A stretch of 64,000 nt of DNA. It comes from an uncultured archaeon (GTDB taxonomy: Archaea; Halobacteriota; Methanosarcinia; Methanosarcinales; Methanoperedenaceae). The translations under genes were made by a program, and so were the position numbers. Positions 47,076-50,785 of the stretch are shown in pieces. Below the pieces are notes generated by a model. The model made no database searches. It had not been told where the DNA came from and saw only the letters and a program-made list of their open reading frames with translations. Location: contig CABMIH010000065.1 of NCBI GenBank assembly GCA_902386205.1, forward strand, positions 62,001-126,000, given 5' to 3'. The stretch's first letter is position 1; the number at the start of each line of letters is the position of its first letter.

Positions 47076-47336
47076 ATGAAAAAGAACGACGAGAACAAAT
47101 GCACGGGGTGTGGTGTCGATCTGACAGGTAAGAAAAGATATCCTGTCTATTCATCGCGGCTTGCGGTGATCGGATACAGATGCCCTGTCTGCCATGAGAA
47201 GGGGAAATCCCCGGAAGTGAAGAAACGCGAGGAAGAAATGAGCAAGCTGATCATGAACGTGCCAAAACTTGAAAATGTGAAGCCTGATCCCGGGAAAAAT
47301 CCGGAAAATGTAGCCGGGGACACAAATATTAATTAA
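47076..47336 (+). CDS. small zinc-ribbon protein
   Basis: 86 residues starting directly after the UPF0179 stop codon. CTGCGVDLTGKKRYPVY and CPVCHEKG make a zinc ribbon; the rest is charged and Pro/Asn-rich. Function unknown, probably linked with UPF0179. Confidence 0.7.
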   Translation: MKKNDENKCTGCGVDLTGKKRYPVYSSRLAVIGYRCPVCHEKGKSPEVKKREEEMSKLIMNVPKLENVKPDPGKNPENVAGDTNIN

Positions 47337-47623
47337 TCAGTTCTATGATCACGGACATCTTCGATACCCTTTAACTGCGACTCTCTTTTACCGGCACGCC
47401 TTCTGGCGATTTCGATGGTGGTTTTCTCCATCATTTCCCGGGTTATGATCGGGATATTTTCCGGTATTTCAATTTTTTCTTTTCTTATTTTCACTAATTT
47501 ATCAACCCCTGTCGCATCTTTTTTATTCTTCATTGAAAGCGATAATAACGATGCAAACATAGCTATAAATACAGGAACGTAATTATTATTTATTAAGTTA
47601 GTGGGAAGGGAAAACTCCCTCAT
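47333..47623 (-). CDS. hypothetical protein with one membrane span
   Basis: 96 residues; N-terminal hydrophobic segment (VPVFIAMFASLLSLSM), then a basic, charged tail (TTIEIARRRAGKRESQ). Not recognised. Overlaps the convergent gene by 4 nt. Confidence 0.5.
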   Translation of the reverse strand: MREFSLPTNLINNNYVPVFIAMFASLLSLSMKNKKDATGVDKLVKIRKEKIEIPENIPIITREMMEKTTIEIARRRAGKRESQLKGIEDVRDHRTD

Positions 47624-47671: not shown

Positions 47672-47974
47672 ATGGTAGGACTTGAAAGCTCGATGGAGAT
47701 GGCTGAATCAGCCACAAAAGTAAAAACACCAAAAGTTGACAACGCCGAAAAAGAAAGGCAAAGGGCATTTCTTGCGCAGTTGAGATCCCGCAAGCCGGAA
47801 AAGGCAAAAGCTGCTGGCAAAAAAGCTCCTTCCAGGGCGAAGAAAGGAAAGAAAATGAAAAAAGCCGTTAAAGGCGAAACATATTATTGCGGAGTCTGCG
47901 GCTGCGAAGTTGTATGCACCACAGAAAGTGACAGCCCGCTCGTTTGCTGCGAGGAAGTAATGTATGTGATTTAA
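47672..47974 (+). CDS. protein with leader-like N-terminus and desulforedoxin-like C-terminus
   Basis: 100 residues in three parts: an N-terminal module MVGLESSMEMAESATKVK running to about residue 40, a Lys/Ala-rich linker (KAKAAGKKAPSRAKKGKKMK), and a C-terminal CGVCGCEVVC...CCEEVM motif like the four-Cys iron site of desulforedoxin. AGGAGG lies at about 47660. The N-terminal module recurs alone in the gene at 48048. Confidence 0.65.
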   Translation: MVGLESSMEMAESATKVKTPKVDNAEKERQRAFLAQLRSRKPEKAKAAGKKAPSRAKKGKKMKKAVKGETYYCGVCGCEVVCTTESDSPLVCCEEVMYVI

Positions 47975-48047
47975 GCTTATTTGATAATAAAACATCGCTA
48001 AAAATAAATTTCCGATGAATTCATAAATTAAGTGGAGGTGAAAAAAA

Positions 48048-48191
48048 ATGGTCGGACTGGAAAGCTCGATGGATCTGGCAGAATCAGCTAAAAAAGTCAA
48101 AAAACCTGATGTTGCCGATGCCGAAAGGGAGAGGCAGAAAAAGTTCTATGAGCAATTGAGAAGCCGCTCAGCGCCTGTACCCGAAGCATAA
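48048..48191 (+). CDS. 47-residue paralogue of the N-terminal module
   Basis: MVGLESSMDLAESAKKVK, then AERERQKKFYEQLRSRSAP: nearly the same as residues 1-41 of the upstream protein, but ending before any linker or cysteine motif. GGAGGTG lies 8 nt before the ATG. Short, clearly translated, function unknown. Confidence 0.65.
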   Translation: MVGLESSMDLAESAKKVKKPDVADAERERQKKFYEQLRSRSAPVPEA

Positions 48192-48412
48192 AGGCAGGAA
48201 AAAATAATTAGTGGAAACTGTTGGCTGTAGGCATGGGGGAAGTGAGAGACCAATTTTGATTAACTCTTTCGACGTGTCGAGGTGTTATCTTCACCTAACC
48301 TGTGTCTAACGGCAATTTTTTAAATTCAATGCATCAAAAACATAAAATGAACAACCAAAGCTTTAATATGATGGTAACTTAGATAAAAATGAAAATGGAG
48401 GTAGAAAGGTCG

Positions 48413-48592
48413 ATGATATTCATGTGCAGCACATATGTGCCTTTCTCTTTGACGCCTGAAGACCTCGAACGGATGGCAAGAGAAAGCGGGATGTTCTATT
48501 GCATGTCATGCAAAAAAACATTCATGATGAAAAATCCGGGCACTGACTGCCCGCATTGCGGTTCAAAGAAAATCAAGCCAAGAGCTAAATAA
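48413..48592 (+). CDS. small zinc-ribbon protein
   Basis: 59 residues from ATG 48413, after GGAGGT (48397-48402); ATG 48389 would add 8. Two CxxC pairs (CMSCKKTF and CPHCGSKKI) make a zinc ribbon. Function unknown. Bases 48192-48388 before it hold no gene. Confidence 0.65.
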   Translation: MIFMCSTYVPFSLTPEDLERMARESGMFYCMSCKKTFMMKNPGTDCPHCGSKKIKPRAK

Positions 48593-48613: not shown

Positions 48614-50785
48614 TTAACTACCCTTCCTACTGCTGATGATGTTTTTATCAATCAATCCCTGCAGTAAGTTCCTGGTCTTGGTTTCAGCGTCAGTATGGCC
48701 CGGTTGATGCTTTTCTTTTATCATATTTATAATTTCGGATAAATTCGATTTTCCGTTGCAGTTGATGAGCAGGTCTTTTACAAACCCGGATACAGTTAAT
48801 ATCCTGTTATTGTTGCTATCGAACAGTACATTTGTCTTTTCCATGTGCATTTTTTTTAAAGCGTTCCCTGTCATCATAGCCTGGTGCAACTGCGCCCAGT
48901 TAAAGTTGAAAGTCCCGATAAAAACACCTTCATTAAGGACCGGATATAATTCCATATTTGTTGGATCGACGTTAACCGGTTTTTCACCTGATCTTTTCTT
49001 CAGTATCCTGTCGATCTGCTCTGACAGGTCAGGGACCTCATTCATATTTTTCTTGAAGTGTGATACATACAGGAAAAGATGTTCCCTGTCAAGATTGCTC
49101 CATATGGGGAAATCTCTGTACTTCAGTGAAAGCTCATCGTAGAATTCCTGGATTATATCATCCGTCTCTTTCTTTGACATGCCGCAAGCCACATCATATT
49201 CATACCAGAGAGACATATCCATGTTATCATTCTTCAGGATAGTTCGGACATAAAACACGCGCGGGTTTTCATAGACCTTTGAATGCTTGGTCAATTGAAA
49301 ACTGCCAAACGACATTGAACGGATTATTTTATTATTCTGCAAAATAAAATCCTTTGTTTCCCTTGCCTCTTCCCGCGTTTCAGTGGGAAATCCGAAAATC
49401 AAAAAAAGGTGGGTCCAGATTCCCGCGTCTGCACAATATTTGCAGATTTTCAGGACATTTTCCTTTTTTATCCCTTTATCCATGCAACCCAGGATCCTTT
49501 CATTTGCGGATTCCAATCCAAAATATATCATCCTGCATCCCGCATCAACAAGCTTATTACTTAGCTCTTGCGAAAATGCGGGCTCAAACCTTGAATCTGC
49601 AAGCCATGATATATCAAGGCCATGCTCATTTATTTTATCAGACAGGGCGCTGATCAGTTTCGGGGAAATCCCCTCATCCTGGAACGTGAAAAATCCTGTT
49701 TCATATTTATTTTTTAAGGTCTTAAGGTCGCTATATAACAGCTCAACATTCCGGGGCCTGTATTTCCCCGAATAACCATAACTGTGGTCGCAAAAAGTGC
49801 ATCGTCCCCAGTAACATCCCCTCGATGAAAGGAGCGGCAGGATAAGTTCAGGGGATAAATACCGGTCAAGCGGGAGACCGTCAAAGCAGGGAGTCGGCAG
49901 GGAGTTAATATCTTCCCCTTCTGGATTTATCCTGTTGACTTTGATACCAGGCCCGTTCCTATATATCAGGTTGGGAACATCCTTTAGATCAAATTCCCCA
50001 TTCAGGTGTTTAATAAGGTTGAGCAGGGCGGTTTCGCCTTCATGCACTATCACGCTGTCAAAAATGGAGAAAAGTTCATTATTCCTGCTTACCTCGCTGA
50101 TAAGACGGGTGAAAACACTTCCTCCGATGTTTATATGGATATCCCTGTCCGCTTTTTTTATAAGGTTTGCAAGCGTCAGCCCGGGTATTAACTGGCTGGT
50201 ATTGATTATCGAAATGCCTATTAATCCCGGTTTATCGGCCAATACCTCCGGGACTGTGTTTTTTTCGAAATAATCTATGAAAAGATTCTCTTCCCTGTCA
50301 TTTATAGCTGAAAGTATATCTTTGCTTGAACGGCACGAATACCGCATATCATAGGCATTAAAAGTCAGATTCGTAGGATAGTATGCAGATGAGGCAAGCT
50401 TAAGGCCAAGCTTAAGTATCTTGAAAATGCTGAAATGTTCTTCAAACTCGTAAAAATTTTCTTTGTTTCTAAGGTGTTTTTTTGCATTATCAATCTCTTC
50501 AAGGATATATTCGCCAAAAAGTATTGAGCTTCCCAGTGCATGGTACTGTTTTTGGTGTTGCGGTGATAGCTCATTTTTGGAGTCCAGTTCCTGGAACCTC
50601 GAACAAGCCCTTTCAAAGAACGGGAGAAGACCTTTTTTACTTAATATCTCATCATAAAAAGATACATTGATATCCACCTGTTCAACATCACAGTTATTGG
50701 CCCTCAAAAAAGCGGTCAGGGAAGGAAGGCTGAGATAGGGCTGGGTGGGAATCCATTGTGGAGGGAATAATAATTTTGTAAGCAT
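48614..50785 (-). CDS. B12-binding radical SAM enzyme with PqqD-like C-terminal domain
   Basis: 723 residues. The N-terminal third has a B12-binding fold (GLIGISIINTSQLIPGLTLA, INIGGSVFTRLI). The radical SAM core starts at SSRGCYWGRCTFCDHSYGY; by count the cysteines are CX4CX2C, not the common CX3CX2C. The last 120 residues (ILTVSGFVKDLLINCNGKSN, then ETKTRNLLQGLIDKNI) resemble PqqD, the peptide-recognition element of RiPP enzymes. Together these suggest a peptide or protein methyltransferase-type enzyme. Single gene. Confidence 0.82.
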   Translation of the reverse strand: MLTKLLFPPQWIPTQPYLSLPSLTAFLRANNCDVEQVDINVSFYDEILSKKGLLPFFERACSRFQELDSKNELSPQHQKQYHALGSSILFGEYILEEIDNAKKHLRNKENFYEFEEHFSIFKILKLGLKLASSAYYPTNLTFNAYDMRYSCRSSKDILSAINDREENLFIDYFEKNTVPEVLADKPGLIGISIINTSQLIPGLTLANLIKKADRDIHINIGGSVFTRLISEVSRNNELFSIFDSVIVHEGETALLNLIKHLNGEFDLKDVPNLIYRNGPGIKVNRINPEGEDINSLPTPCFDGLPLDRYLSPELILPLLSSRGCYWGRCTFCDHSYGYSGKYRPRNVELLYSDLKTLKNKYETGFFTFQDEGISPKLISALSDKINEHGLDISWLADSRFEPAFSQELSNKLVDAGCRMIYFGLESANERILGCMDKGIKKENVLKICKYCADAGIWTHLFLIFGFPTETREEARETKDFILQNNKIIRSMSFGSFQLTKHSKVYENPRVFYVRTILKNDNMDMSLWYEYDVACGMSKKETDDIIQEFYDELSLKYRDFPIWSNLDREHLFLYVSHFKKNMNEVPDLSEQIDRILKKRSGEKPVNVDPTNMELYPVLNEGVFIGTFNFNWAQLHQAMMTGNALKKMHMEKTNVLFDSNNNRILTVSGFVKDLLINCNGKSNLSEIINMIKEKHQPGHTDAETKTRNLLQGLIDKNIISSRKGS

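Follow-up and report, generated by a model that had tools for sequence, protein, structure and literature searches.

A putative lineage-specific small-protein module of Methanoperedenaceae that recurs ahead of a zinc-ribbon gene and is fused in places to a predicted desulforedoxin-type domain

Introduction

Two tandem small genes in the window (the whole 64,000-nucleotide stretch of archaeal DNA analyzed here) encode proteins that begin alike and end differently, and a radical SAM gene lies nearby on the opposite strand. What does a constant N-terminus do on such proteins? The original prediction favored a tag for recognition or targeting, and allowed that the proteins might be precursors processed by the radical SAM enzyme. 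The wider setting is that small proteins are increasingly recognized to regulate the core energy complexes of the methane archaea, MtrI being a recent case. Here the family to which the common N-terminus belongs, its fusions and its gene neighborhoods are described, and the possible roles are weighed.

Results

The tandem genes of the window

The features of the locus, and of related loci referred to below, are collected in Table 1. As had been proposed, the two tandem genes share their N-terminus: 28 of 40 residues are identical, against 13 in the best of 20,000 shuffles, and the second gene matches the first with an E value of 1.3e-10 in a search of their own genome. Both ORFs lie in a direct repeat of 132 nucleotides (73% identity, spacing 376) that starts 12 nucleotides before each start codon. 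By the Nei-Gojobori method, comparison of the short gene with its G008 orthologue resulted in a dN of 0.018 and a dS of 0.187, the module part of the long gene has values of 0.047 and 0.40, and those for the two window modules compared with one another are 0.23 and 1.05. The low dN relative to dS indicates that these genes encode real proteins under purifying selection.

Beyond the common part the two proteins differ. The short protein does not merely end there, as first described, and has seven extra residues, SAPVPEA. The long protein continues into a linker with 11 Lys among its 26 residues (41-66), in which KKGKK is kept in seven of eight aligned sequences and reads KKGKR in the remaining one; in the fold model, the pLDDT is below 50 at residues 41-58. 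The linker is followed by the Cys-rich tail discussed below. The search of the genome for further proteins with this N-terminus that had been recommended yielded a third copy, 51 residues long, on another contig (C41), ~0.8 kb before genes that we take, by eye, to be narGH-like. Also located in the window are genes for an 86-residue double-CXXC protein and an adjoining 96-residue ORF, whose homologues outside their own genome were found only in G008 among the loci compared.

Table 1 Coordinates of the features discussed; positions without a locus prefix refer to the window.
Feature	Location	Strand	Remarks
86-aa double-CXXC protein	47076-47336	+	
Adjoining 96-aa ORF	47333-47623	-	
Long protein gene	47672-47974	+	100-aa ORF
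N-terminal module of long protein	47672-47791	+	residues 1-40; 28/40 identical to second gene
Lys-rich linker of long protein	47792-47869	+	residues 41-66; assigned by composition
Predicted desulforedoxin-type metal-site domain of long protein	47870-47971	+	residues 67-100
Stand-alone module protein gene	48048-48191	+	47-aa ORF; G008 orthologue 96% identical
Zinc-ribbon partner gene	48389-48592	+	67-aa ORF; likely start 48413 or 48422
Predicted B12-binding radical SAM protein	48614-50785	-	723 aa; PF04055 62.6 bits, above cut-off; convergent with zinc-ribbon and module genes
PqqD/RRE-like C-terminal domain of radical SAM protein	48635-48829	-	residues 653-717
Radical SAM gene loci in relatives	L208-L219, L223, L103, L112, L114, L131, L137, L138, L234		
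Genomes with radical SAM gene and mcrA on one stretch	G002, G003, G005, G006, G007, G009, G010, G013, G014, G016, G017, G018, G019, G021, G023, G024, G030, G033		
Broken radical SAM remnant (G022)	L020:1995-2457	-	
DnaJ-type zinc-finger gene	L114:3258-3521	+	
Antisense ~105-aa gene	L114:3627-3944	-	
Divergent module with 2-TM domain (G005)	L130:5191-5727	-	
SSWWxERxKI proteins with H1-like tails	L226:1088-1357 (own genome, C39)	-	others at L227-L230, L232

Distribution, sequence and predicted fold of the module

A profile of 20 module sequences (A1) was searched against the 185 genomes of the order and, at an E value of 0.01 or better, matched 39 of them. The module is present in 29 of the 31 Candidatus Methanoperedens genomes, of which 27 have the long form, and G004 and G018 show just the short core; the profile gave no match in the genus genomes G002 and G011, nor in G032 of genus g3. 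Both genomes of genus g2 (G031 and G033) contain the module, and eight genomes of a second family, f2, yielded core-only matches, three of which were inspected and are small ORFs of 30-36 residues. There was no match to this profile in family f5 of the order, presumably Methanosarcinaceae. The search of 392 genomes of the phylum resulted in ten matches. The four outside the order, with E values of 0.004-0.01, were judged to be due to chance, three of them lying inside a 681-residue frame; the frame inspected looked by eye like an MCM-type helicase. In the named collection, the 43 confirmed module loci belong to Candidatus Methanoperedens, Methanoperedenaceae archaeon, uncultured archaeon and Methanosarcinales archaeon METP1.

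A genome contains between one and seven modules, in varied places, and 57 of the 66 copies inspected stand alone. The module comprises ~45 residues with the consensus MVGLESSMDxAxxAKKVKKPxVxxAExxRQxxFYxQLRxRxAxQP, and the tails QPxGAQY(D/K/E) and AP(Q/V)PK are frequent. Ten columns are invariant among the 20 sequences of the profile, and E26, L37 and R40 are invariant across 27 diverse members. Two helices are predicted, at residues 4-15 and 24-39, by a model computed from eight sequences with block pLDDT values of 51-63. The conservation along helix 2 is periodic, with a best angle of 95° and a permutation p value of 0.01 for hand-chosen helix limits and related sequences, and the repeat is as expected for a helix with one conserved face. 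The same permutation test detected no helical periodicity in helix 1 (p 0.77).

No credible Pfam, NCBIfam or PDB match was found that would place the N-terminus in a known family with another role. Pfam yielded nothing over the module up to an E value of 10, and NCBIfam no match for the short protein. The NCBIfam match of the long protein to aldehyde dehydrogenase is at chance level (E 0.068, 11.8 bits versus a cut-off of 403), and the PDB profile matches up to an E value of 10 (best 0.014), which include protein A domain constructs, QmcA and ribosomal L21e, were likewise attributed to chance. No relative was found in IMG/VR by pattern and tblastn searches, and tblastn gave no match for the long protein in the PLSDB plasmids and none for the short protein in the phage records. 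Judged by sequence, the module appears to be an undescribed, lineage-specific small-protein family of Methanoperedenaceae.

Two other settings of the module recur. In four genomes, a short variant ending in KSRKE, KSSKE or KSHR adjoins an integrase-like gene (a PF00589 match at L105) and a conserved small gene (L105, L118, L150 and L151), possibly forming a small mobile unit. Another type is syntenic with genes for a BadF-type activase and an HgdB-like protein at L116, L117, L119, L125, L133 and L143 (PF01869 in L116 and PF06050 in L125), and five of these six loci also carry a gene that, by eye, we take to be MptA.

The Cys-rich tail and other fusions

The fused form, module plus Cys-rich tail, occurs in eight genomes of the genus (G000, G005, G007, G008, G009, G012, G016 and G023). 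The tail had been described as a four-Cys, metal-site-like C-terminus; the likeness to a metal site held up, and the count did not, the long protein having six Cys residues (73, 76, 78, 82, 92 and 93). Residues 73, 76, 92 and 93 correspond to the four Cys of desulforedoxin (CX2C and CC) and are invariant in eight aligned sequences, as is Cys82. PF06397 scores 17.9 bits on the tail, below its cut-off of 23, and the tail is therefore named desulforedoxin-type and not filed as a PF06397 member. The PDB entry of a desulforedoxin, 1cfw, matches the tail with an E value of 0.083. Foldseek superposition of the tail model (block pLDDT 72-78) on 1dxg_A resulted in a TMt of 0.92, an rmsd of 0.8 over 36 columns, 39% identity and an E value of 0.02. 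The modeled tail is best described as a desulforedoxin-type domain; desulforedoxin is an iron protein.

Two further kinds of fusion were encountered. In G005 a divergent module precedes a 2-TM domain, and PADLOC weakly assigns the whole protein as a defense 2TM effector (E 0.006); a G010 homologue aligns at residues 58-175 only, outside the module. A second N-terminal tag, SSWWxERxKI, which is unrelated to the module, precedes a desulforedoxin-type domain in 13 proteins inspected, with near-full-length matches in 17 genomes. The same tag is joined to histone-H1-like Lys-rich tails in six proteins from five genomes, including the window's own, and to a phosphoesterase-like domain in G026 (L231). 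The occurrence of this tag on several C-termini indicates that N-terminal tag swapping on small proteins is wider than the module family.

The modular use of the N-terminus, mostly alone, in eight genomes with the Cys-rich tail and once with a 2-TM domain, agrees with the original idea of a recognition tag, with docking as the conjectural part of this reading. A tag that targets proteins to a compartment or granule, in the manner of an encapsulation peptide, would also combine a constant helix, a flexible linker and a variable cargo. The module does stand before nothing, before a desulforedoxin-type domain and before a 2-TM protein, and the second tag is likewise common to dissimilar C-termini. 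However, the 57 stand-alone copies have no cargo, no shell or granule gene was recognized among the recurrent neighbors, part of which were scanned against families, and a single genome supplies the 2-TM fusion, in a divergent copy. Targeting of this kind is considered improbable.

A zinc-ribbon gene adjacent to the module

An additional ORF, absent from the original prediction, sits between the module pair and the radical SAM gene. The encoded protein is a zinc ribbon that begins with the conserved MCSTY, contains the four Cys of a ribbon and finishes in an IKPRA-like sequence, and it resembles many ribbons at scores below threshold, Zn_ribbon_3 among them in 10 of 10 members. Among the 99 genomes searched, the gene was found in 28 of the 31 genomes of the genus, in both genomes of g2, in five genomes of f2 and not in the single g3 genome. 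Of the 30 genomes of the genus and g2 with a zinc-ribbon gene, 20 have a module at most 800 bp upstream of it on the same strand (18 of 28 and 2 of 2, respectively), and in the other ten the gene is away from any module. Counted by module, 24 of the 66 genes have a zinc-ribbon gene so placed, a rate biased by the choice of 61 stretches around modules; one of these pairs, at L122, involves a truncated ribbon 785 bp off. Counted by zinc ribbon, 21 of 24 stretches have an adjoining module, a figure biased in that 60 of the 79 stretches were picked around modules. The module must have further uses, because 42 of the 66 module genes are without a zinc-ribbon neighbor.

The surroundings of the module/zinc-ribbon pair vary: mcr/radical SAM genes, flavodoxin-like genes, lipoate-ligase-like genes and the window's own setting. 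The zinc-ribbon gene is the best-linked gene of the module, in two genera and in several surroundings. In four genomes (L112, L113, L144 and L145) the zinc-ribbon gene is immediately preceded by the fused form with no plain copy, the ribbon frame opening 3-63 bp on. In the window, in G008 and in G009 the fused form comes first, followed by a plain form and then the zinc ribbon. A fused and a plain gene end one G005 contig and a plain-gene fragment and the zinc ribbon end another, which is consistent with this order. Fused and plain modules thus take the same place before the zinc-ribbon gene. G034 and G079, the two f2 genomes with both a core-only module and a zinc-ribbon homologue, carry them on different contigs.

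An alternative is that these are nucleic-acid- or ribosome-associated proteins, such that helix 2, the linker and the zinc ribbon would bind RNA or DNA and the Cys4 domain would be a zinc site. Rich in Arg and Lys, helix 2 might just as well bind nucleic acid, which weighs against a docking role, and the computed pI is 9.3 for the long protein and 11 for the linker. The resemblance of the partner to many ribbons below threshold and the joining of SSWWxERxKI to H1-like tails in other Methanoperedens small proteins point in the same direction. However, the basicity of the short module protein is mild (pI 8.1), GAQY followed by D, K or E terminates many of the stand-alone copies, and the Cys4 domain, with an acidic pI of 4.1, matches the iron protein desulforedoxin. 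Taken together, nucleic-acid binding is unlikely, though not strongly so.

The radical SAM gene and the mcr locus

A radical SAM gene is indeed encoded on the other strand, as reported for this locus, whereas the PqqD domain attributed to it is a match below threshold. PF05402 (PqqD) scores 13.8 bits on the window protein and 21.7 bits on the G030 orthologue, with the cut-off of 23.4 reached by neither, and PF02310 (B12-binding) scores 28.1 bits against a cut-off of 32.1. The mean pLDDT of the model is 49, so that whole-chain Foldseek matches are not meaningful; the blocks spanning residues 671 to 720 have values of 73-84. With this poor model, Foldseek placed PqqD (5sxy) at rank 27, with a TMt of 0.71 and an E value of 0.12, and the RRE of TbiB1 (5v1v) at rank 41, with a TMt of 0.76 and an E value of 0.19.

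The gene was found in 26 genomes, 22 of the 31 in the genus at an E value of 1e-100 plus G006, G031, G032 and G033; the G006 copy is cut by a contig end, and other absences at 1e-100 may hide fragments. The copy is in pieces in G010 and has an internal stop in G020. Within the order, at an E value of 1e-120, the gene is confined to Methanoperedenaceae except for two f5 homologues at 38-40%. The usual order is mcrBDGA, a DnaJ-type zinc-finger gene, an antisense 105-residue gene and then the radical SAM gene. In 18 of the 26 genomes mcrA is on the same stretch (Table 1), McrA being confirmed by TIGR03256 for L138 and called by similarity elsewhere. G012 and G026 have only the small mcr-locus genes beside the radical SAM gene, at a contig end, which brings the number of genomes with the gene at the mcr locus to 20 of 26. 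It lies apart from the mcr locus in G000, G008 and G031, and linkage is not judgeable for G020, G029 and G032. In the window genome, the radical SAM gene and the small genes are together, away from the mcr locus.

The interval from mcrA to the radical SAM gene contains two conserved small genes. One encodes a zinc finger of the DnaJ type with the motif CXXCXGXG, which in L112 scores above the PF00684 cut-off, and the other the antisense protein of ~105 residues, whose L142 copy has no Pfam or NCBIfam match. A separate 5-kb contig of G007 (C23, L243) carries a further mcrA-mcrG pair, with mcrA preceding mcrG, the reverse of the usual arrangement, and none of the other mcr-locus genes tested; it could be an extrachromosomal or contaminating copy.

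The module adjoins the radical SAM gene in nine of the 26 genomes (G000, G005, G007, G008, G009, G026, G030, G031 and G033). Some of the remaining radical SAM loci end near a contig edge; at least ten mcr/radical SAM loci have room for a module, yet none is present. Each gene also occurs without the other. G022, a 99% complete genome, retains a broken radical SAM remnant, C-terminal pieces in separate frames, beside the module and zinc-ribbon genes. The module adjoins mcr-locus genes with no radical SAM gene between them in G025 and G001, and G015, G027 and G028 have modules and no radical SAM match at 1e-100, two of the three being 63-68% complete. Conversely, G002 has the enzyme and no module match. 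The adjacency pointed out in the original prediction is a neighborhood that is real but inherited.

That neighborhood was the basis for regarding the module as a RiPP-type precursor, with the N-terminus as a leader recognized by the PqqD-like domain of the enzyme. A PqqD/RRE-like domain, albeit sub-threshold, the adjacency in nine genomes and the identity of the nearest NCBIfam model, a RiPP C-methyltransferase subfamily (112.8 bits versus 281.85), would fit such a role. However, the enzyme resides at the mcr locus in most of the genomes that have it, modules remain in G022, G025 and G001 although the enzyme is lost or broken there, and G002 has the enzyme without a module match, so that the precursor role is not supported. 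In addition, many tails are conserved (QPxGAQY or APxPK) rather than forming a variable core, and the longest tail is predicted to be a folded metal domain. A precursor role is highly improbable.

The linkage to mcr suggests another alternative, in which module and zinc ribbon are ancestral at the mcr locus as accessories of MCR maturation, aiding the radical SAM enzyme or MCR assembly. Consistent with this, the order mcr, DnaJ-type gene, 105-residue gene, radical SAM gene and convergent zinc-ribbon and module genes occurs in G033, G005, G007, G009 and G030, the same order is seen in G026 with the mcr genes off the contig, G022 and G025 show it without the radical SAM gene, and G001 with just the 105-residue gene. 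Nonetheless, the ten or more roomy mcr/radical SAM loci lacking an adjoining module count against it, as does the location of the module/zinc-ribbon pair elsewhere in G014, G024, G016, G012, G023, G029 and G027. The convergent orientation also precludes co-transcription. This role is regarded as distinctly unlikely.

Discussion

The explanation that best accommodates these observations, with a probability of roughly 40%, is a docking module that acts with the zinc-ribbon protein, the fused copy adding a metal or redox site. The module would form two short helices, the second of which (AExxRQxxFxxQLRxR) presents one conserved face to bind a partner. It would work with the zinc-ribbon protein encoded directly downstream, either by direct binding between the two proteins or by joint docking on one larger partner. 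Part of the genus has a module copy before the zinc-ribbon gene that is fused via a flexible Lys-rich linker to the Cys4 domain. In the window such a fused copy stands beside a plain copy, and it would bring an Fe(Cys)4 redox or metal site to the binding place of the plain copy; iron would be favored over zinc. Against docking, the module/zinc-ribbon pair could persist by common descent alone. The module is a conserved, multi-copy family of freshwater methane-oxidizing archaea without a Pfam or NCBIfam model, it comes with a candidate partner gene, and its natural fusion suggests a role involving redox or metal.

A second outcome concerns a published MCR modification that is an orphan, for which the locus offers a candidate enzyme. 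In two ANME-2d strains, the gamma chain of MCR was reported to contain 3(S)-methylhistidine at position 159, and the MCR to be without methylglutamine; a reaction like that of Mmp10 or MgmA is expected for the methylhistidine, and the passages concerned do not name the enzyme (PMC12413448). The radical SAM protein is a candidate methyltransferase for McrG His159 in ANME-2d on account of its B12 radical SAM type with a PqqD-like tail, its near-confinement to Methanoperedenaceae and its adjacency to mcr, and the assignment is put forward tentatively, as a possibility somewhat short of even odds. If it is true, the module/zinc-ribbon pair would be a small-protein unit that arose next to this maturation locus. 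The gene is beside mcrA in G017, which was matched to strain BLZ2, for which the modification was reported, and in G003, a METP1 assembly that may correspond to the Vercelli strain of that report. All 26 McrG sequences examined contain His159. McrG has Asp145-Trp146 in all 14 genomes scored with the enzyme, including G020 despite the stop, versus Cys-Pro in five outgroups. Asp145-Trp146 also occurs in G022 and G004, where the enzyme was not found, in G010, where it is in pieces, in G011 and in the second mcr copy of G007, and Cys-Pro is kept in G025, where no enzyme was found, and in G006, whose enzyme gene is interrupted by a contig end. The apparent co-variation of McrG with the enzyme is mixed and not decisive.

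A search of the literature found no paper joining ANME-2d, a small protein, radical SAM and mcr, and none joining Methanoperedens with desulforedoxin. Four known systems come closest. MgmA (TIGR04014) represents the B12 radical SAM methyltransferases of MCR, which the window protein resembles in its radical SAM match, its sub-threshold B12 match and, in most relatives, its position at the mcr locus. However, the window protein scores 64.9 bits versus a cut-off of 360 and has a PqqD-like tail, and MgmA was found above the cut-off in 0 of 34 Methanoperedenaceae genomes and in 11 of 60 genomes overall. The RiPP C-methyltransferases (TIGR03975) provide the best NCBIfam match of the radical SAM protein, yet the score is far under the cut-off, and the window-type gene is linked to mcr and not to a precursor gene.

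The tail of the long protein shares the CX2C...CC ligand pattern and the predicted fold of desulforedoxin and Desulfoferrod_N (PF06397; 1DXG). It differs from them in the module and Lys-rich linker that precede the domain and in the extra invariant Cys82, and the long protein is without a superoxide-reductase domain.

The closest parallel to the module itself is MtrI of Methanosarcina mazei, a small protein of 68 residues, helical in structure, that sits on the Mtr complex (PMC12774963). As described there, MtrI is short and helical, is encoded outside the operon of its target in varied contexts, and is restricted to Methanosarcinales including Methanoperedenaceae, features to which those of the module are similar. 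The contacts of MtrI are described as involving Cys and Trp (PMC12774963), whereas the module has no Cys and its long form no Trp, and the PDB matches obtained with the module profile, taken to an E value of 10, include no Mtr chain. By analogy, MtrI would serve as a precedent for a small docking protein and not as a demonstrated relative of the module.
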